Shown here: positions 2,371 through 30,122 of the stretch, in pieces
Numbering within the stretch: position 1 is the first letter of the stretch
How the letters are laid out: each line of letters begins with the position of its first letter
From: a virus
Virus record (IMG/VR): IMGVR_UViG_3300010151_000006
Span: 1-30,122 of that record
Strand: one strand, 5' to 3'
Length of the DNA stretch: 30,122 nt
Translations under genes and position numbers: made by a program
The notes under the pieces: model-generated
Seen by the model: the letters and a program-made list of their open reading frames with translations, nothing else
The model's database searches: none
Told to the model about the DNA's origin: nothing

Positions 2371-3609
2371 ATGACAAAATTCAAAAAGCAATTCCGTCCA
2401 CATTGGAATGAAGGACTTCAACCACTGATCAACGATCTTCGAAAATTTCCAGAAGGAATCCAGACACAATGTTTGTCGGCTGCGATAAAATATGCAAAAA
2501 AGGGTGGTGAACTTGAAGTTGATCACACCAAAAACAAACAAACAATCACGTCACCGAAATCTTCAAGGATCAAAACACTTGATGATCTGATTCGTGTCTG
2601 TAATATAGACACATCGGTTTGGAATGTTGATCGATATGTTGTCAACAAATGGGAAGTCGGATCACAAGTTGATGGACAAATCATTGTTGAACCACTTTTT
2701 CAGATCAAAGCGTGGTTGAAAAAATCAACTGAAATCTTTGAATTGAAAAGGATCAGACAAGAAATCATTGAAGATGTCAAATCATTTGCACCACAATATG
2801 AAACCATAAAATTCGAAAACAAGAATCATGGACAATTGATGGAAGTCAACATCTTTGATCTTCATTTCGGAAAACTTTGCTGGGGTTTGGAAACTGGTGA
2901 CAACTACGACATCAAAATTGCCACCAGAAGGTTCATTGATGCGATTTCATCGATGATTGAACGATCAAGGGGGTTTGACATCAAACGTGTTGTTTTTCCT
3001 ATTGGAAACGATTTCTTCAATTCAGACACCAGAATGAATCAAACTTCAAACGGAACACCACAAGACGAAGATCTGCGATGGCAAAAAACATATCGTGCTG
3101 GTCGTGAATTACTGATCAAAGGAATTGACATGTTGTCAACCATTGCACCAGTTGATGTGATTGTGGTTCAAGGAAATCACGACTTTGAACGATCCTTTTA
3201 TGTTGGCGATGCAATGGAATGCTGGTATCATAACAACGAAAATGTCAGTGTGAACAATGGTGCGAATCCACGAAAACACTATAAGTTCGGACAATGTCTG
3301 ATCACCTACACACATGGAAACAATGAAAAGGTTGCTGATCTTCCGTTGTTGGTTGCAAGTGAAGAACCGAAATTGTGGTCTGAAACAAAATTTCGTGAAA
3401 TCCATGTCGGACATTTGCACCATAAAAAGGAAATCAAGTTCATGGCAACACAAGAACACAAAGGAATGGTGATCCGATTCATGCGATCTTTGTCTGGAAC
3501 TGATGCATGGCACAATCTAAAAGGTTACAAAGGCGGCATTCAGTCGTGTGAAATGTTTATATGGGACGAAAATGATGGTCTTGTTTGTCAATTTGCACAC
3601 AACATTTGA
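2371..3609 (+). CDS. Calcineurin-like metallophosphoesterase (phage DNA-repair exonuclease-like)
   Basis: The 412-aa protein carries the full set of metal-binding motifs of calcineurin-like phosphoesterases: D163-L-H165 (FDLHFGK), GND at 212-214, GNHD at 268-271, His315 in YTHGNNE and GHLHH at 347-351. This is the SbcD/Mre11-type fold, so nuclease or phosphodiesterase activity is likely; the substrate is unknown. Residues 70-100 hold TLDDLIRVCNID and VVNKWEVG, which I recognise as recurring N-terminal segments in phage phosphoesterases of this type. It is the last gene before a terminator and lies next to the lysis genes, an odd place for a DNA-metabolism enzyme. The stop codon is part of the terminator hairpin. 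Confidence 0.88.
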   Translation: MTKFKKQFRPHWNEGLQPLINDLRKFPEGIQTQCLSAAIKYAKKGGELEVDHTKNKQTITSPKSSRIKTLDDLIRVCNIDTSVWNVDRYVVNKWEVGSQVDGQIIVEPLFQIKAWLKKSTEIFELKRIRQEIIEDVKSFAPQYETIKFENKNHGQLMEVNIFDLHFGKLCWGLETGDNYDIKIATRRFIDAISSMIERSRGFDIKRVVFPIGNDFFNSDTRMNQTSNGTPQDEDLRWQKTYRAGRELLIKGIDMLSTIAPVDVIVVQGNHDFERSFYVGDAMECWYHNNENVSVNNGANPRKHYKFGQCLITYTHGNNEKVADLPLLVASEEPKLWSETKFREIHVGHLHHKKEIKFMATQEHKGMVIRFMRSLSGTDAWHNLKGYKGGIQSCEMFIWDENDGLVCQFAHNI

Positions 3610-3629: not shown

Positions 3630-3700
3630 CTTATTTTATACAAAAAACACTGGAAAATCTACGAAAATAAAAGAAATTTTCAACTAATTTTGTGCAATCC

Positions 3701-3774
3701 TTATCTAGTAAACAAAGAAAAATGAAAAAAAGTTTGATTTCTTTGTTGTAGAATGAAAGTTTTTTTTATCTTTA
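3701..3774 (+). promoter_or_regulatory. Early promoter element, copy A
   Basis: The element starts with TTATCTAGTAAA and ends in a -7 box TATCTTTA (3767-3774), one base off the Bacteroidota consensus TAnnTTTG. CTTTG at 3741-3745 could serve as the -33 element. GAATGAAA (3751-3758) ends eight bases before the -7 box. An element of the same layout and roughly 80% identity by eye lies at 8896-8970. The 3630-3825 gap otherwise shows only A/T-rich sequence and no gene. Confidence 0.75.
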
Positions 3775-3825
3775 CATCAGAAATCAAGACAAGAAGTTTT
3801 GATCACACCTAAAAAAAACAGAAAA

Positions 3826-4182
3826 ATGGAAACTATCACAACAATTCAAAAATCAGAAATTTCAGTGAACACAACAATCAAATTTCAAATCACAAAATCA
3901 AGCATGTCAAAAAGACAAATGGACTATTCAAGCACATCAGTTGATTCATTCAAAGTGAATCGTTCAATCATGGCTTGTGATGTCAGAAACTGGTCTGATG
4001 AAGTTCTTCAAAGAAGAATCAATGATGGTGCAGAAACTTATGGTGAATTCATGTCAATCGAAATGGCGACAATTTTTTGTGATGCATTGAATAATAAAAC
4101 ACAACAAGAATTGATTGATCTTTCAATCGCTGATGACTACAAAATGACATTGTCAGAAAACATGATTGTTGAACACTTATAA
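3826..4182 (+). CDS. Unknown early protein, 118 aa (cassette A)
   Basis: I do not recognise this protein. It is soluble with no membrane segment; the N-terminal 45 residues are Ser/Thr/Lys-rich and the rest mixed alpha-like, with a C-terminus (LSENMIVEHL) of hydrophobic and acidic residues. ATG 3826 is chosen because it lies 16 bases after the ACCT of the shared early leader; the frame extends to TTG 3799, which has no support. It stands alone between a strong-looking promoter and a terminator, as the gene at 9020 does, although the two proteins do not look alike. First gene after the promoter suggests early, high expression; a host-takeover or antidefence role is speculation. Confidence 0.8.
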   Translation: METITTIQKSEISVNTTIKFQITKSSMSKRQMDYSSTSVDSFKVNRSIMACDVRNWSDEVLQRRINDGAETYGEFMSIEMATIFCDALNNKTQQELIDLSIADDYKMTLSENMIVEHL

Positions 4183-4194
4183 AAAAAACAACAA

Positions 4195-4224
4195 GATCGG
4201 TCACGAAAGTGATCGGTCTTTTTT
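4195..4224 (+). terminator. Terminator of cassette A, GAAA tetraloop
   Basis: GATCGGTCAC (4195-4204) pairs with GTGATCGGTC (4209-4218), ten pairs with two G-U wobbles, closed by GAAA. Six T bases follow. The two arms are exactly the same as those of the terminator at 9341, which has TTCG as its loop. No promoter is visible before the next gene at 4243, so some read-through is likely. Confidence 0.88.
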
Positions 4225-4242
4225 AATAAAAGAAATATAAAA

Positions 4243-4491
4243 ATGGAAAAAATTACTTTCGAAAAAGATTCAAAAGAACGACAAAAGCACGTCAAAGACA
4301 CGTGCAAAAGAATGGTGTCGTGGGGTTGTGAAATTGTTGAAGTTTACGTTTCACTCTGGACTGGGGTGGTGATCATCACATTCAAACACGAAAAACAGAT
4401 TCTTGACATCATTTCAACCGACATAAAAGAAACGCTTGAAGAAACACTTCAGTGTTATGATCCACAAAACAAACCTAAAAAAAGAAAATAA
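4243..4491 (+). CDS. Unknown small protein, 82 aa
   Basis: No family is recognised. The N-terminal 25 residues are highly charged (Lys/Glu), followed by a hydrophobic, probably beta-stranded core (EVYVSLWTGVVIITF) and a basic end, KPKKRK. It begins 18 bases after the T-run of the cassette A terminator and ends three bases before the next start, so it heads a run of tightly packed small genes to 4928. Expression is probably by read-through of the terminator. Confidence 0.75.
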   Translation: MEKITFEKDSKERQKHVKDTCKRMVSWGCEIVEVYVSLWTGVVIITFKHEKQILDIISTDIKETLEETLQCYDPQNKPKKRK

Positions 4492-4940: not shown

Positions 4941-4964
4941 GAATGAAAAAATTGTTTACTTTTG
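4941..4964 (+). promoter_or_regulatory. Early promoter with AATGAAA box and perfect -7 element
   Basis: TACTTTTG (4957-4964) matches the Bacteroidota -7 consensus TAnnTTTG in full. GAATGAAA (4941-4948) stands eight bases before it, the same spacing as at 3751 and 8947. It would drive the operon that starts at 4989 and runs to 7325. Confidence 0.72.
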
Positions 4965-6637: not shown

Positions 6638-6853
6638 ATGACATATAAAAGAAGAACAAGTTTGTCGAAATTTGAAGAACTTTCAGAAGACAAGAAACAA
6701 AAAGTCATTGATCACATCACCAGAATGAATTGTTCTATTGAATCGGCTGCAAAATCATTGAACATGACAAGGGAAACAATCAACAAGATCTTTGCAGAAC
6801 GATTCGGAAAACGTGATCGTGCAATTGACAAAATAAAAGAAACAATCAAATGA
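6638..6853 (+). CDS. Small HTH protein, 71 aa
   Basis: A basic N-terminus (TYKRRTSLSKFEEL) precedes a second helix-turn-helix candidate, CSIESAAKSLNMTRETINKIF (about residues 31-50), and a basic end. It resembles Fis- or resolvase-type HTH segments that recognise DNA with the RETINKIF helix. It follows the XRE-like gene by five bases, so the two probably act together or in sequence. The longer frame from 6611 would overlap the upstream gene and is not used. Confidence 0.65.
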   Translation: MTYKRRTSLSKFEELSEDKKQKVIDHITRMNCSIESAAKSLNMTRETINKIFAERFGKRDRAIDKIKETIK

Positions 6854-7020
6854 TCAGTGTGTTTTTTTTCTTTGTGGGTTTGACTTGTGGTGTGTATATC
6901 ATGACGCAATATGAATTCAGACACTGGTTGAAAGAACGATCAGATCTGAAAAAAGAACTGGAAAAAACAGAACATGAAAGAAACTACTGGAAAAACCAGT
7001 GGAAAAATAAATATGATTAA
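6850..7020 (+). CDS. Small membrane protein with coiled-coil tail, 56 aa
   Basis: This 56-aa product overlaps the preceding stop by ATGA. Residues 3-18 (SVFFFFVGLTCGVYIM) form a membrane helix, followed by a charged region with heptad-like spacing (LKERSDLKKELEKTEHERN) and an aromatic end with two Trp. Short N-anchored coiled-coil proteins are common in phages and have varied roles. No function is assigned. Confidence 0.65.
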   Translation: MISVFFFFVGLTCGVYIMTQYEFRHWLKERSDLKKELEKTEHERNYWKNQWKNKYD

Positions 7021-7383: not shown

Positions 7384-8496
7384 ATGGAAAAAAACAAAAA
7401 CAAAGATCGAAACTTTCTGGGTGTTTGGATTCCGAAACACGTATATTTGAACAAACAACTTTCGTGGCTGGAAAAGATTCTTCTGGTCGAAATTGAATCA
7501 CTTGACAATCAAGATGGTTGTTTTGCATCGAACGACTATTTCGCTGAATTTCTGGACGTTACGAAAACAACAATTTCAACTGCAATTTCTAAATTGAAAC
7601 AACTGGGGTTTGTCAGACAAGTGTCTTTTGATGGACGCAGAAGGGTTCTGGAAGTTTGTGATCCAGCATTTAAGAAAACCGAAAGTCAGAGTTCGTCAAA
7701 ACTTGAAGGCAGCATTGATGAAAACTTGAAACATAATAATACAGATATAAAATCAACTAATAATTCAACTAAAATAAAAGAAAAAATATATAAAAAGAAT
7801 TTTTTGAATTTAGAAAAAAAACAACAAAAGAAGATCCACGACATTCAAGATGGATCAGTTTGCATTGAAGTTGATGAATTAAAAAATTCACAAGTTTGGA
7901 TTGAATCAACTGCAAGACATTTGAAAGTTTCAATGTTTTGGATCAACACACTTTTGAAAGAATTCATTTCTGAACAAAAATTGAAAGACGATTCATTCAA
8001 ATCTTTGCGTGAAACAAAAACACACTTCTTGAACTGGTCAAAAATTCAGATCCAAAAAAATCGAAAAACTGATGATCGGTGGGGACGTGTTGATCCATCA
8101 CACACAAGAACGATCAAAAGAAAAGAAGAAGTGAAACCAGAAATTTCAGAAGAAGAAAAAAAGAAAATTCACAATGATTTCATCAAATCAAATCTGATTG
8201 ATCCGTTCAATCAATTTGTTCAAACAAACAATTTTGTGAAGATCAGTGACTTCGGATCACTGGTTTCAAATGAATTGAAGAAACATGGGTTCTGGTTTGA
8301 ACACGACAATCATGTTGTTGAATATATGAAAACAATGAAAAAACCAAAACCAAAAAAGAAACAAAACACAAATGGAATCGGATCACTGATGAAAAAAGAT
8401 CGATCATCAGAAATGATCAAAGATTTCATCATGAAAGTTTCGTTTGAAAAAATGAAAGAAAAAAATGTTGATCTTGAAAAAATAGTGATCAGATGA
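7384..8496 (+). CDS. Replication initiation / helicase-loader-like protein with N-terminal winged helix
   Basis: The 370-aa protein begins with a helix-turn-helix domain (about residues 15-95): LSWLEKILLVEI, FASNDYFAEFLDVTKTTIST with the recognition helix, and KLKQLGFVRQVSFDGRRRVLEV as the wing. This is the layout of phage replisome organisers and DnaD-like loaders. A low-complexity Asn/Lys linker (about 118-150) follows. Residues 160-225 (WIESTARHLKVS, FKSLRETKTHFLNW) resemble the C-terminal domain seen in Bacteroidota phage and plasmid replication proteins. The protein would bind the origin and load host helicase, as the genome has no polymerase or helicase of its own. The start follows a perfect promoter and leader. 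It overlaps the nuclease gene by ATGA. Confidence 0.78.
   Translation: MEKNKNKDRNFLGVWIPKHVYLNKQLSWLEKILLVEIESLDNQDGCFASNDYFAEFLDVTKTTISTAISKLKQLGFVRQVSFDGRRRVLEVCDPAFKKTESQSSSKLEGSIDENLKHNNTDIKSTNNSTKIKEKIYKKNFLNLEKKQQKKIHDIQDGSVCIEVDELKNSQVWIESTARHLKVSMFWINTLLKEFISEQKLKDDSFKSLRETKTHFLNWSKIQIQKNRKTDDRWGRVDPSHTRTIKRKEEVKPEISEEEKKKIHNDFIKSNLIDPFNQFVQTNNFVKISDFGSLVSNELKKHGFWFEHDNHVVEYMKTMKKPKPKKKQNTNGIGSLMKKDRSSEMIKDFIMKVSFEKMKEKNVDLEKIVIR
7733..7822. other. A/T-rich segment inside the replication gene, possible origin
   Basis: This part of the replication gene is markedly richer in A/T and in TpA steps than the rest of the gene and encodes only the disordered linker. It contains TCAACTAA twice (7753-7760 and 7765-7772, a 12-base period) and a run of ATATATAAAAAG. 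In lambda-like phages the origin lies inside the initiator gene in just this position. The origin role is inferred. Confidence 0.4.
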
Positions 8497-8849
8497 AAAA
8501 CAGACAAGACGAACTGAAGATTCAAATTGCAGTGGTGAACTGGATCAAATCAAATTTTCCAGAAATCAGATATTGTGCAAGTGCTGGTGGAATGCGAACA
8601 TCACTTTCAGTTGCAAAGAAAATGAAGGCATCTGGATATGTCAAAGGGTTTCCAGATCTTTTTTTGTATCACTGCACAATGAAACACAACGGACTTGCAA
8701 TTGAATTGAAAACAAAAACTGGAAGATTGTCACCACATCAAAAACAATGGCTGGAAGATCTGAATGCACGTGGATATTGTGCAAAATGCACACATTCTTT
8801 TGAAGAAACAATCGATTTGATCACTGAATATTTGAACGAAAACGTGTAA
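8493..8849 (+). CDS. VRR-NUC domain nuclease
   Basis: The 118-aa protein is a single PD-(D/E)xK nuclease domain of the VRR-NUC type. Glu7 lies in the first helix, KGFPDLFLY supplies Asp55, and LAIELKTKTGRLSPHQ gives Glu71-x-Lys73 and Gln84; WLEDLNARGY completes the family pattern. Stand-alone phage versions probably process branched or damaged DNA. It overlaps the replication gene by ATGA, so the two are translated together. Length and motif spacing agree with other stand-alone phage members. Confidence 0.9.
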   Translation: MKNRQDELKIQIAVVNWIKSNFPEIRYCASAGGMRTSLSVAKKMKASGYVKGFPDLFLYHCTMKHNGLAIELKTKTGRLSPHQKQWLEDLNARGYCAKCTHSFEETIDLITEYLNENV

Positions 8850-8895: not shown

Positions 8896-8970
8896 TTATC
8901 TAGTAAAGTGAAGAAAAGTGAAAAAAACTTTGATTTGTCCATTGTCGAATGAAAAATTGTTTTATCTTTA
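8896..8970 (+). promoter_or_regulatory. Early promoter element, copy B
   Basis: TTATCTAGTAAA opens the element, followed by an A-rich stretch, TTTGATTT, GAATGAAA (8947-8954) and the -7 box TATCTTTA (8963-8970). The same parts occur in the same order at 3701-3774, with only a one-base difference in length. A 34-codon open frame from 8851 runs through it but is not conserved in copy A, so the gap 8850-9019 is read as regulatory. Confidence 0.75.
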
Positions 8971-9019
8971 CACCATGAAAGAAACACAATGTTTCGGACA
9001 ACCTAAAAAAATCAATCAC

Positions 9020-9328
9020 ATGGAAACAAAAGAAACAATCAACAACACATTCAAAACAAATGCAAGACACTTTGTTCTTGACACTATCAATGAAGTTCAA
9101 AGATTCAAAACATTTCACAATTTAGATCTTGACAACACGATCAATGCACTTTTCGGTCTTTTTGACACACACCGATTTGACATGAATGTTTGGAACAAAG
9201 AACTGGAAAAAATTACAAAAAACGGAAGAACATTTCCATCACACAAAAACATTCTTTGCATTGCTGCTTTATGCAACAAAATCAACATTTGTGGATCGGC
9301 TGCAACTGGAATGGCATTGTCAAGATAA
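9020..9328 (+). CDS. Unknown early protein, 102 aa (cassette B)
   Basis: No family is recognised. The protein looks all-helical (VLDTINEVQRFKTF, DLDNTINALFGLFD, VWNKELEKITK) with a C-terminal part that has Cys residues (CIAALCNKINICGSAATG). ATG 9020 is 16 bases after the ACCT of the leader, exactly as in cassette A; an upstream in-frame ATG at 8975 would sit at the predicted transcription start and is less likely. The gene is alone between a promoter copy and the twin terminator. It shares this setting, but no obvious sequence, with the gene at 3826. Confidence 0.8.
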   Translation: METKETINNTFKTNARHFVLDTINEVQRFKTFHNLDLDNTINALFGLFDTHRFDMNVWNKELEKITKNGRTFPSHKNILCIAALCNKINICGSAATGMALSR

Positions 9329-9340
9329 AAAACAAAACAT

Positions 9341-9369
9341 GATCGGTCACTTCGGTGATCGGTCTTTTT
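9341..9369 (+). terminator. Terminator of cassette B, TTCG tetraloop
   Basis: GATCGGTCAC (9341-9350) and GTGATCGGTC (9355-9364) are the same two arms as at 4195, here closed by TTCG in place of GAAA. Five T bases follow. Both loops are exceptionally stable tetraloop classes. No promoter is visible before the next gene at 9392, so read-through probably feeds it. Confidence 0.88.
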
Positions 9370-9391: not shown

Positions 9392-9826
9392 ATGGAACAA
9401 ACATTGAAAATCAAGATCAAAGACGATCAGATCACACTTCTTCAAGTTGTAGATCAAAAAGAACATGAACTTGCAAACAGATCATTTCATGATGGTGAAT
9501 GGAACAAAATGGTCGATGCGTTCAGATCCACATTCGTTCAACCGAAAACATTTGCATTCACTGAAATTGACTGGTGGGTTGCAGTTGATGAACATGGTCG
9601 TGGAAACTGGAAAAAAAACTTTTACAAATTAGTTGTGAAATACAAAAACGGATTCACATATAAAATCAAATCATTCAATGAATTCAACAACGTGTTCGGA
9701 ATGAAGTTTCAAAGGGACACAACATTTGATCAGTTCAAAGAAACCATGAAAAGAATTCATGATGAATTGAAAACAGATCAAGATCCAGAATTCAACATTG
9801 TTCAATCTGAATTTGATGTGTCATGA
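9392..9826 (+). CDS. Unknown protein, 144 aa
   Basis: I recognise no family. The sequence is mixed alpha/beta with several Trp and Phe residues (FAFTEIDWWVAVDEHGRGNW) and a C-terminal acidic region. The start lies 14 bases after the ACCT of a leader that matches those at 3826, 7384 and 9020, although here it follows a terminator and no promoter box. It overlaps the next gene by ATGA and heads the operon to 10874. Confidence 0.78.
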   Translation: MEQTLKIKIKDDQITLLQVVDQKEHELANRSFHDGEWNKMVDAFRSTFVQPKTFAFTEIDWWVAVDEHGRGNWKKNFYKLVVKYKNGFTYKIKSFNEFNNVFGMKFQRDTTFDQFKETMKRIHDELKTDQDPEFNIVQSEFDVS

Positions 9827-10924: not shown

Positions 10925-10940
10925 CTTGGTTTTTTAGGTG

Positions 10941-10975
10941 GGACGGATTGCAGAAATGTGATCCGTTCTTTTTTT
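10941..10975 (+). terminator. Strong terminator between early and late regions
   Basis: GGACGGAT (10941-10948) pairs with ATCCGTTC (10961-10968), eight pairs with one G-U, around a 12-base loop. Seven T bases (10969-10975) follow. The next promoter box starts two bases later, so the site both ends early transcription and precedes the terminase genes. Confidence 0.85.
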
Positions 10976-10976
10976 A

Positions 10977-10984
10977 TATATTTG
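10977..10984 (+). promoter_or_regulatory. Promoter box abutting the terminator
   Basis: TATATTTG is a perfect TAnnTTTG -7 box. The ATG of the next gene begins only five bases after its last base, so a transcript that starts at the normal distance would be leaderless or nearly so. No AATGAAA box is present upstream, where the terminator stem lies. Confidence 0.55.
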
Positions 10985-24362: not shown

Positions 24363-24671
24363 ATGATAGTTGTCGGAATAAAAAAACCACGTATTTTTGA
24401 ACAAACAAAACACTTCACAATGAAAGAAATTGCAGACAAAGTTTCAATTGATGATCAGAATGAAATTGACAACTTATTGAAGAAGATCAGAAAAGATGCA
24501 CGTGGTCGTTTTATGTATAATAAAAAAGACGCACTTGCAATTCTTCCGTTTTTCAACAAATATATTGACGCAAAAGTCGGAAAAAACATTTTCGGTTGTG
24601 GTGGGTGTGTGAATAAAATCATGAACAAGATGTTTGAACTTCAAAAAGAATGGCGAAACCTAACAAAGTGA
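24363..24671 (+). CDS. Unknown small protein, 102 aa
   Basis: The protein is basic, with KISGR-free helical sequence and a Cys motif IFGCGGCVNKIMNKM near the end. The N-terminal part (KHFTMKEIADKVSIDDQNE) could hold a helix-turn-helix, but the signal is weak. ATG 24363 follows AAAAAATC and is preferred to the longer frame from 24300, which would overlap the zinc-protein gene. It overlaps the next gene by 22 bases. Confidence 0.68.
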   Translation: MIVVGIKKPRIFEQTKHFTMKEIADKVSIDDQNEIDNLLKKIRKDARGRFMYNKKDALAILPFFNKYIDAKVGKNIFGCGGCVNKIMNKMFELQKEWRNLTK

Positions 24672-25009
24672 CACATGTTGAAGATTTCATTGAAACGATC
24701 TGGAACGAAATCCAGACAAGGTTCGGTGAATATGCGACACCGAAAGACATCGTCTATCATTTGATTGAACGTGGAATTGCAGAACCGACAAGGGTTCGAA
24801 ATTATCTGATCATCAAAGAATTTGATCGTCTTCTTGTGGAAAATGAAGGACATGTGACACACACATTCATGGATCTTTCAATCATTTATGATCTGTCTGA
24901 TCGACAAGTTCAAGGCATTGTCTATAAATACAGAAACAAATTTCGAAAAGATGCAAACATCAAAGCAAAAAAGAAACAAGTTTCCAGATCAAAACTTTTC
25001 AAAAAATAA
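24650..25009 (+). CDS. HTH-containing protein, 119 aa, possible late regulator
   Basis: Residues 75-105 read HTFMDLSIIYDLSDRQVQ then GIVYKYRNKFR, a helix-turn-helix similar to Mor-type transcription activators. The N-terminal half (FIETIWNEIQTRF, PKDIVYHLIERGI) is helical and could form the dimer. The C-terminus is very basic (KAKKKQVSRSKLFKK). It is encoded directly before the head-module promoter at 25048, which it might control; that link is by position only. Confidence 0.62.
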   Translation: MAKPNKVTHVEDFIETIWNEIQTRFGEYATPKDIVYHLIERGIAEPTRVRNYLIIKEFDRLLVENEGHVTHTFMDLSIIYDLSDRQVQGIVYKYRNKFRKDANIKAKKKQVSRSKLFKK

Positions 25010-25047
25010 ACTTCCGTAAATTTCGAAGAACAAAAAGATTGTGTTTG

Positions 25048-25055
25048 TATTTTTG
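25048..25055 (+). promoter_or_regulatory. Promoter box before the head module
   Basis: TATTTTTG is a perfect TAnnTTTG box, seven bases before ATG 25062. TTTCGAAG lies upstream, with TTCG (25022-25025) 22 bases before the box as at the promoter at 13042. The transcript would have a very short leader. Confidence 0.6.
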
Positions 25056-25061
25056 CCACGC

Positions 25062-26102
25062 ATGAAAAATTGGTTCGAAATAAACAACAAAGCAAAAGAA
25101 ACCGCAGAAATCTGGATTTATTCAGAAATCGGTGGGTTCGATGTCAACGCAAAATCTTTCATTGATGAACTTCGTGAAGTAAAAGGAAAAAATCTTGATG
25201 TTCACATCAATTCACTTGGTGGATCGGTGTTTGATGGTCTTGCAATTTACAATGCTTTAAAAAACCACAAAGGAAAAGTCACAACGAAAGTTGAAGGAAT
25301 TGCCGCATCAATTGCATCGGTGATCGCAATGGCTGGTGACGATGTGGAAATGGCAAAGAATTCATTGTTTATGATCCACAATCCTTTCACAATGGCTGGT
25401 GGTGATGCAAATGAACTTCGAAAAACTGCAAATGTTCTTGACAAAATACGTGATGAAATTGCTGAAATTTATGCAACAAAATCTGATCAAGATATTGAAA
25501 CACTTGTCGGACTTATGAATGCAGAAACATGGTTGAATGCTGATGAAACACTTCAAGTTGGTTTTGCAAACATGGTCAGTGATTCAGTTGAAATTGTGAA
25601 CAATTACGATGTTTCAAAATTCAACAATATAACAGAAGAAAAAATCAATTCTATAATATTAAATAATAAAAAAGAAGAAAAAATCATGGCAAACGAAATC
25701 AATGAAGAAAAAGGTTTGATCGAACAAATCAAATCACTTTTCAAAAATCAAAATGAATCAATTCAAAACGCAGAAGGTGATGAAGATGGAAGTGAAGCGG
25801 AAGACACTGACTGGGCAAAAACTTATGAAGAATTGAAAGATCAAGTGAAAAATCTTGAAGATGCAGTTCATAAGATCGAAGAACAACTGGGAATGAAAGA
25901 AGAAGAAATCGCAGACAAGGTTGGTCAATTAGAAACTGCAAATGAAGAAGTTCAAAATCTTTCAAATGAAATTTCAAAACTAAAGGCAACAAAAACAGAT
26001 GTTGTTGCTGATCAAGATCCAAACATCGGAACTGACAAAGTTGTTGATGAAAATTCTGCATTTTACAATGCGATGTTGAAGGGTTTGCAAAGAAAAGCAT
26101 AA
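25062..26102 (+). CDS. Prohead protease (ClpP-like, S14) fused to scaffold domain
   Basis: The 346-aa protein starts with a ClpP-like fold: INSLGGSVFDGLAIYNAL near 50-67, VEGIAASIASVIAM with candidate nucleophile Ser83, and FMIHNPF with His106. The third catalytic residue is not assigned. After residue ~175 come a polar linker and a coiled-coil, acidic C-terminal region that acts as scaffold in such fusions. An independent start at 25686 (residue 209) probably makes the scaffold alone. ATG 25062 is used because the TTG at 25041 lies upstream of the promoter box. The protease matures the procapsid built by the capsid protein encoded next. Confidence 0.85.
   Translation: MKNWFEINNKAKETAEIWIYSEIGGFDVNAKSFIDELREVKGKNLDVHINSLGGSVFDGLAIYNALKNHKGKVTTKVEGIAASIASVIAMAGDDVEMAKNSLFMIHNPFTMAGGDANELRKTANVLDKIRDEIAEIYATKSDQDIETLVGLMNAETWLNADETLQVGFANMVSDSVEIVNNYDVSKFNNITEEKINSIILNNKKEEKIMANEINEEKGLIEQIKSLFKNQNESIQNAEGDEDGSEAEDTDWAKTYEELKDQVKNLEDAVHKIEEQLGMKEEEIADKVGQLETANEEVQNLSNEISKLKATKTDVVADQDPNIGTDKVVDENSAFYNAMLKGLQRKA
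25686..26102 (+). CDS. Nested scaffold protein (internal start in the protease gene)
   Basis: ATG 25686, in frame with the protease, is preceded by an A/T-rich, TpA-rich leader (TATAATATTAAATAATAAAA and following), unlike the coding sequence around it but like the leader of the capsid gene at 26143. It would yield a 138-aa protein: an acidic stretch, then coiled coil (QVKNLEDAVHKIEEQLG) and a C-terminal end for capsid contact. Lambda makes scaffold Nu3 in the same way from inside the protease gene C. The nested product is inferred from the leader and domain boundary. Confidence 0.6.
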   Translation: MANEINEEKGLIEQIKSLFKNQNESIQNAEGDEDGSEAEDTDWAKTYEELKDQVKNLEDAVHKIEEQLGMKEEEIADKVGQLETANEEVQNLSNEISKLKATKTDVVADQDPNIGTDKVVDENSAFYNAMLKGLQRKA

Positions 26103-29975: not shown

Positions 29976-30122
29976 ATGTCAAATCTTCACAAAGATCTTA
30001 CAAACGACCAGATCCACAATCCGAAGGACTTCGGAACTGCGGCAAATTCAACAAAATTGACAAAGAACGCATCTGGAAATCTTGAATGGGTTGCCGATTC
30101 TGGTGGTGGTTCTGGGGTTTCA
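29976..30122 (+). CDS. Tail fibre gene, 5' part (continues at 1)
   Basis: ATG 29976 follows an A-rich leader. The first eight codons (MSNLHKDL) are unique to this end; the rest repeats bases 1-123. On the circle the gene runs 29976-29999 then 1-720. The window end cuts it, so it is listed in two parts. Confidence 0.85.
   Translation, partial: MSNLHKDLTNDQIHNPKDFGTAANSTKLTKNASGNLEWVADSGGGSGVS
30000..30122. repeat. Right copy of the 123-bp contig-end overlap
   Basis: Exact copy of 1-123. Removing one copy gives the circular genome. The odd length and arbitrary position inside the fibre gene fit an assembly overlap. Confidence 0.95.

Follow-up and report, generated by a model that had tools for sequence, protein, structure and literature searches.

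Probable swappable gene slots framed by a shared promoter, leader hairpin, and terminator in small Bacteroidota phages

Two stretches of a viral genome, positions 3701 to 4224 (slot A) and 8896 to 9369 (slot B), are built on one plan, consisting of an extended promoter, a leader with a hairpin, one short gene, and a terminator hairpin. Both lie on the plus strand of the window, by which we mean the whole 30,122-nucleotide stretch that was analyzed (IMG/VR record IMGVR_UViG_3300010151_000006). An earlier note on this DNA had proposed the common plan, and the parts are indeed repeated at these positions. Slot A follows a "DNA repair exonuclease" gene (2371 to 3609, plus strand; phrog_704, E = 7e-76) and slot B follows a VRR-NUC gene (8493 to 8849, plus strand; PF08774, E = 2e-10); each of these neighbors has a homolog in all nine full-length relatives. 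The slots hold one gene each, encoding 118 amino acids in slot A (3826 to 4182, plus strand) and 102 amino acids in slot B (9020 to 9328, plus strand), which agrees with the 102 to 118 codons given earlier. The two proteins had been described as not alike, and BLASTP found no similarity between them even at an E value of 100. The first gene behind slot B (9392 to 9826, plus strand) is common to the near clade of relatives (G001, G002, G004, G008, and G011).

The promoter half of the frame opens with TTATCTAGTAAA. The window has two exact copies of this sequence, at 3701 and 8896, and no other site comes closer than two mismatches. In slot A, the extended upstream part (3701 to 3766) runs from TTATCTAGTAAA (3701 to 3712) through an A-rich stretch, TTTGATTT (3733 to 3740), a TTG (3746 to 3748), and GAATGAAA (3751 to 3758) up to the -7 box TATCTTTA (3767 to 3774), which lies 18 nt past the TTG. 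Slot B repeats this order on the same strand (8896 to 8962), with TTATCTAGTAAA at 8896 to 8907, TTTGATTT at 8929 to 8936, TTG at 8942 to 8944, GAATGAAA at 8947 to 8954, and TATCTTTA at 8963 to 8970, again 18 nt past the TTG. The box begins 66 bases past the start of TTATCTAGTAAA in slot A and 67 bases past it in slot B, in keeping with the reported agreement in spacing to within one base. Over 65 bases (3715 to 3779 against 8911 to 8975), the two copies are 83% identical. A self-search with positions 3690 to 4230 recovered the second terminator (E = 1.2e-9) as well as the second promoter (E = 5.9e-23, 78% identity); repetition of this order does not arise by chance.

Promoters of the Bacteroidota primary sigma factor, sigma ABfr, have a -33 TTTG and a -7 TAHHTTTG (PMC6847099, PMC2483708). 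The window boxes match the form TAHHTTT[G/A] of this consensus (PMC6847099), and their TTG, 18 nt upstream, falls in the expected range of ~18 to 21 nt for TTG or TTTG. Shared with this class are the -7 boxes TATCTTTA, TACTTTTA, and TATCTTTG (the last found in G008, G014, and G016), the TTG 18 nt upstream, and an A-rich TAAAA start context. Unlike the consensus, the -7 boxes of the window end in A and not in G (position -5), and a conserved extension (TTATCTAGTAAA ... TTTGATTT ... GAATGAAA) reaches 66 nt above the box. At 4957 and 7353 there are two shorter promoters of this class that do not have the extended upstream part; added to those of slots A and B, they bring the class to at least four members in the window, two of them in the long form. 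A search of 84,980 bacterial and archaeal genomes with the extended pattern returned 13 matches, mostly due to chance, indicating that it is not a common host promoter.

The sole plausible cellular instance found is in a Flavobacteriales metagenome-assembled genome (L168, 3843 to 3934), where the extended pattern precedes a gene with a signal-peptide-like start. Matches in L015, L017, L019 to L023, L025, and L027 were rejected as chance occurrences in unrelated contigs. In two more distant phage contigs, probably from Bacteroidota (L013, 3300044305_003120; L016, 3300030451_000228), TTATCTAGTAAA ... TATCTTTAC precedes small single genes; the L016 instance sits between terminase and portal genes and has a terminator behind its gene. 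The motif AATGAAA recurs above the -7 box, at ~32 bp in the window clade or at 20 to 22 bp (G014, G016, G019, and G023 slot A). These spacings are multiples of a helical turn and could reflect phased A-tracts or an activator site.

Each leader contains a hairpin that was absent from the earlier note: ATCAAGAC-AAGAA-GTTTTGAT in slot A (3783 to 3803, plus strand; fold z of -3.6) and GAAAC-ACAAT-GTTTC in slot B (8981 to 8995, plus strand; fold z of -2.4). In most occupied slots, the leader is 49 to 53 nt long and has a 7- to 9-bp hairpin at a constant position with a loop like ACAAA. The stems vary in sequence, with changes on both sides in seven of eight pairs. Across the leaders, we counted 18 both-side cells against 4.7 expected, none of 500 shuffles reached the observed score, and control structures that had been slid scored far below the hairpin. 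As judged by this covariation, compensatory changes have preserved the leader hairpin, which is selected for its structure. Rfam contained no family near the leader. An A-rich start context beginning with ACCTAAAAAA leads up to the ATG in both slots (3807 to 3825 and 9001 to 9019, plus strand), so that ACCTAAAAAA stands 19 bases before both ATGs and not 16 as first reported. It is present in both leaders but is not specific to the cassettes: further copies, at 4473, 7363, and 9375, lie ahead of or close to the starts of other genes. ACCTAAAAAA includes TAAAA, a Flavobacterium start context (PMC2483708).

On the 3' side, the predicted terminator of slot A (4193 to 4224, plus strand) consists of AAGATCGGTCAC-GAAA-GTGATCGGTCTT (4193 to 4220), a 12-bp stem with a GAAA loop, and a T run; that of slot B (9341 to 9369, plus strand) consists of GATCGGTCAC-TTCG-GTGATCGGTC (9341 to 9364), a 10-bp stem with a TTCG loop, and a T run. 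The ten-base arms are identical, as had been observed, the tetraloops differ, and there is no third copy in the window. A GC-rich hairpin 3' of the cargo gene was found in about 21 of 32 slots, and some of these hairpins are without a T run. About eleven of the 32 slots have no clear 3' hairpin, and some "cassettes" are therefore simply the first genes of operons. The plan of a single gene and a terminator fits the window, but some slots in relatives hold two genes or are without a hairpin. Slots that belong to the same genome, or to the same near clade, tend to have hairpins of like sequence (GATCGGTCAC; CCCCGTCAT...GTCGGGG; GGGCGGGTGAAATTCCCGCCC). Elsewhere in the window, a strong terminator with a 13-bp stem (10940 to 10969, in the region 10940 to 10984) precedes the late region, and TATATTTG at 10977, 12 nt upstream of gene 10989, possibly marks the start of the late operon.

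Self-comparison of the window revealed an exact 123-nt direct terminal repeat (bases 1 to 123 and 30000 to 30122), which indicates a complete, closed phage genome of about 30.0 kb; relative G001 likewise has a 123-nt repeat. All main genes are carried on the plus strand. The TerL protein is 80 to 86% identical to TerL in several viral contigs, and the closest cultured phage by this protein is Flavobacterium phage 11b (46% identity), in which the promoter model had no significant match and the slot neighbor genes are absent. A near-identity search of the window against 50,697 phage records gave no match. Neither a tyrosine integrase (PF00589) nor a serine recombinase (PF00239) was found in the window and nine full-length relatives in searches whose controls worked, making lysogeny doubtful. 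Gene 4989 was considered as a single-strand annealing recombinase, and the test lent this no support.

Relatives, all of them metagenome contigs, were gathered from IMG/VR by searches with TerL, VRR-NUC, and the exonuclease (G001 to G029). On sequence grounds, they and the window make up a clade of ~31-kb Bacteroidota phages with the gene order exonuclease - slot A - ... - replication protein - VRR-NUC - slot B - ... - terminase. The frame is present at slot A, behind the exonuclease, and at slot B, behind VRR-NUC, in 27 related viral contigs. In L012/G008 (1 to 735), a PAPS-reductase-like gene lies directly before slot B, at the position of VRR-NUC in other genomes. The end of contig G024 (3300030104_000169, 30445 to 32332) matches the slot A region of G021, and G024 has its own slot A at 400 to 1111; this contig end, at least, is probably chimeric, or else the product of a very recent exchange.

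To ask, as the earlier note had suggested, whether the flanks are conserved in relatives, we built a promoter HMM from 11 copies and ran it on both strands of 27 contigs (574 kb, E ≤ 0.01). They are: 28 of the 32 matches fell in slots A, B, or C (slot C is described below), four at other forward promoters, and none on the reverse strand. The likeness between promoters is a feature of the near clade, because in the distant members G020 and G021 a genome's own two promoters are only 0.67 alike, against 0.63 for shuffled sequence. Strikingly, three promoter copies of G001 share TTTACTTTTAC. We do not claim concerted evolution of the promoters, as identity within genomes (0.75) was hardly above that at the same slot over all genome pairs (0.73).

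The genes inside the frame turn over while their neighbors on the left and right stay. In pairwise comparisons of genomes, whose counts are not independent of each other, the exonuclease was homologous in 78 of 78 pairs, VRR-NUC in 136 of 136, and g9823 in 136 of 136; the first gene behind the promoter was homologous in four of 78 pairs for slot A and four of 153 for slot B. The two places are not always occupied by the same gene families, which sets aside simple gene duplication, the outcome that the earlier note had named as contrary to its proposal. Of the 47 window genes, just three have homologs in no more than one of the nine full-length relatives, namely, those at 3826 and 9020 and a 56-amino-acid open reading frame at 6850. 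Nearly all of the others are common to seven to nine of the nine, and the exceptions lie mostly close behind the slots. The reading frame at 6850 to 7020, which is hydrophobic and has a homolog in none of the nine, marks a further accessory position without the frame.

Turnover is not universal, since G001 and G008 retain the window's slot A gene. This family is limited to slot A of those two genomes, belongs to no known family, and yielded just the same two relatives in a search of viral contigs. The slot B gene had no relative in any collection searched, and neither cargo had one outside the clade in these collections. A PDB sequence search returned nothing for either protein, and their AlphaFold2 models (pLDDT of 44 and 46) were not interpretable.

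Comparisons between genomes place the limits of the exchanged material at the borders of the frame. Identity between the window and G004 at slot B extends to 9029 (ATG at 9020) and resumes at 9326 (the stop codon ends at 9328), and identity with G009 at slot A extends to 3832 (ATG at 3826). The sister contigs G020 and G021 are 88 to 94% identical over ~16 kb, with just two breaks of more than 100 bp, at slots A and B. G021 has 314 additional bp in slot A, a gene and a hairpin that immediately follow the leader and are bracketed by copies of a 23-nt leader repeat. In slot B, identity between the two contigs stops at the start codon. A similar insertion, with a 31-nt repeat, distinguishes G006 from G005 at another promoter, which constitutes a further slot in this pair.

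Material is also shared across slots. Between G014 and G016 the exchange is reciprocal: the slot A promoter and leader of G014 correspond to slot B of G016 (85.5%), and the slot B promoter and gene of G014 correspond to slot A of G016 (78%). A family that we call "RFDRHEIY" occurs in slot A of G002 and slot B of G011 (72%), a "TNVF" family in slot B of G014 and G018 and slot A of G016 and G023 (up to 75%, E = 4e-100), and a C5 methyltransferase in slot B of G001 and in the slot A operon of G020 and G021 (60%). G001 has tandem complete cassettes in slot A, and G019 has tandem promoter-gene units in slot B. A third place, slot C, lies between homologs of window positions 24650 to 25009 and 25041 to 26102; it holds a cassette of promoter, gene, and hairpin in G019 and in G023, where the flanks are alike and the genes differ. 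Eleven genomes, the window among them (25010 to 25040, plus strand), have this site empty. By these comparisons, the places of the frame stay constant while cargo is replaced, gained, and lost, and both gene families and parts of promoters pass from slot to slot. The breakpoints at the frame borders and the exchange across slots fit recombination between copies as a putative mechanism.

We therefore favor, as the probable account of the architecture and the exchange, swappable slots in which a fixed frame holds exchanged, unrelated genes. The frame comprises a promoter of the host's sigma ABfr type whose extended upstream part is phage-specific, a hairpin leader of ~50 nt with an A-rich start context, and a 3' hairpin terminator; unrelated short genes occupy the stretch from the start codon to the terminator. 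On the left side, the breakpoints fall at the start codon, and on the right side they fall at either the stop codon or the terminator. Cargo may be swapped when two phages co-infect and undergo homologous or short-homology recombination, with the shared promoter/leader and terminator/next-leader sequences as the likely sites. Host polymerase would read the slot promoter soon after DNA entry, and the leader hairpin might stabilize, protect, or tune the mRNA. The terminator would cap cargo expression, with some readthrough feeding the operon behind it; we infer readthrough because there is no promoter between the terminator and the next gene. The paired reusable slot for different small genes that had been proposed earlier survives in its central part, slots with changing genes, but there are more than two of them.

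A more specific version, speculative yet conceivable, is that the leader, through its hairpin and ACC-A8 start context, serves as a landing site, forming an integrase-free, integron-like capture platform for changing anti-host genes. Units of a gene and a hairpin, each followed by a leader copy, would then be gained or lost singly behind a resident promoter, and capture would leave the 23- to 31-nt leader repeat on both sides. Another, unlikely view takes the frames as the promoters of two ordinary early operons, with the first gene as a place of accessory turnover; there would be no mobile unit, and the flanks would appear conserved because the operon behind needs them. That each frame heads an operon, that its terminator is not directly followed by another promoter, that several relatives have no terminator behind the first gene, and that the same-class promoters at 4957 and 7353 have no cassette all suit this view. 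It is harder to square with slot C, where a full promoter-gene-hairpin unit separates two genes that 11 relatives have next to each other, with the travel of promoter and leader between slots in G014 and G016, with the tandem arrangements in G001 and G019, and with the gene-hairpin units inserted behind a leader.

The remaining explanations are less credible still. Strict prophage morons, expressed in lysogeny to the benefit of the host, would also be single genes with their own promoter and terminator that are missing from relatives; we consider them quite improbable here, given the result for PF00589 and PF00239. The succession of promoter, small gene, terminator, and operon remainder at two places recalls PL-N-tL1 and PR-cro-tR1 of lambda, in which case the first gene would be an antiterminator like N and the terminator would attenuate transcription of the operon genes that follow. 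A regulator of its own operon should be conserved, however, and unrelated proteins, a C5 methyltransferase among them, fill the place; some relatives, moreover, are without the terminator, making this reading very improbable. Least credible of all is that one promoter-gene-terminator unit was duplicated and its genes then diverged beyond recognition. The same architecture and the 83% identical 65-bp core in one genome could be taken that way, but noncoding parts that remain 78 to 83% identical alongside proteins without similarity, and many unrelated cargo families, each well conserved internally, at the same places in relatives, argue against it.

Swappable slots resemble several known systems. 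Promoter-early stem-loops (PeSLs) of T4-type phages (Arbiol et al. 2010; Comeau et al. 2014; summarized in PMC4503421), with PeSL-like motifs also in haloarchaeal virus HGTV-1 (PMC3950731), combine an early promoter and a stem-loop repeated in the genome among small accessory genes, and recombination between copies has been proposed to shuffle these genes, as far as that summary describes it. In the phages studied here, copies of a promoter and a stem-loop likewise recur within a genome, at places where accessory genes are shuffled. PeSLs, by contrast, belong to T4-type myoviruses with sigma70-like early promoters, whereas here TerL is, among cultured phages, nearest that of phage 11b (46%) and the promoter is of the Bacteroidota type. 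PeSL copies are reportedly dense in shuffled regions, and the present clade of ~31-kb phages differs in its few fixed slots, its covarying 5' leader hairpin, and the placement of the promoter before and the hairpin after the gene.

The morons of lambdoid phages, as outlined by way of PMC7067206 (Juhala et al. 2000), are single genes, each with a promoter and terminator of its own, that separate genes found side by side in relatives, and slot C is an exact fit to that outline. One gene with its own predicted promoter and terminator is what the sequence features of the slots indicate. Insertion between adjacent genes is seen in slot C (two filled, 11 empty), in G021 against G020, and in G006 against G005, and the window cargos, missing from nearly all relatives, show it as well. 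Morons are known for prophage expression; here no integration gene was found, and many unrelated genes reuse the same regulatory frame. In archaeal viruses, early anti-defense regulons share a regulatory sequence that predicted 354 anti-defense genes, the function of some of which was tested, according to the portion of PMC11065993 drawn on here (Bhoobalan-Chitty et al. 2024). That portion describes unrelated small single genes behind one conserved regulatory sequence with a strong promoter, and a shared regulatory sequence before unrelated small genes is also what we find; it differs in having archaeal promoters and does not describe a terminator frame or exchange at fixed slots. On present comparisons, the slots are moron- or PeSL-like exchangeable cassettes, more than two in number, which we set apart from PeSLs by phage group and promoter type, and from morons in that these are defined by expression during lysogeny and by being dispensable in the lytic cycle. 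The earlier note knew of no such paired cassette in Bacteroidota phages; in principle, morons, PeSLs, and archaeal regulons are similar.

Among 26 representative cargos, one had a clear functional match, a DNA C5-cytosine methyltransferase (phrog_757, E = 1e-30; PF00145, E = 8e-10). C5 methyltransferases are a type of protein that phages deploy against restriction. This one cargo, the pattern of turnover, and the analogy with archaeal viruses lead us to propose that the slots may carry changing early anti-host or anti-defense genes, an assignment of anti-host function that we regard as evenly balanced. If it is true, the frame would provide a sequence handle for a function-blind search, in which any gene behind it becomes a candidate early anti-host or anti-defense gene; the 26 candidate cargos collected here are almost all without known relatives. 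The covarying leader hairpin could be tried as an expression element in the genetics of Flavobacterium and its relatives. The idea of shuffling by promoters and stem-loops, put forward for T4-type phages and haloarchaeal viruses, would then cover small Bacteroidota phages too, with fixed genomic slots and exchange between them, and the swapping of single host-directed genes by phages would become testable by co-infection.
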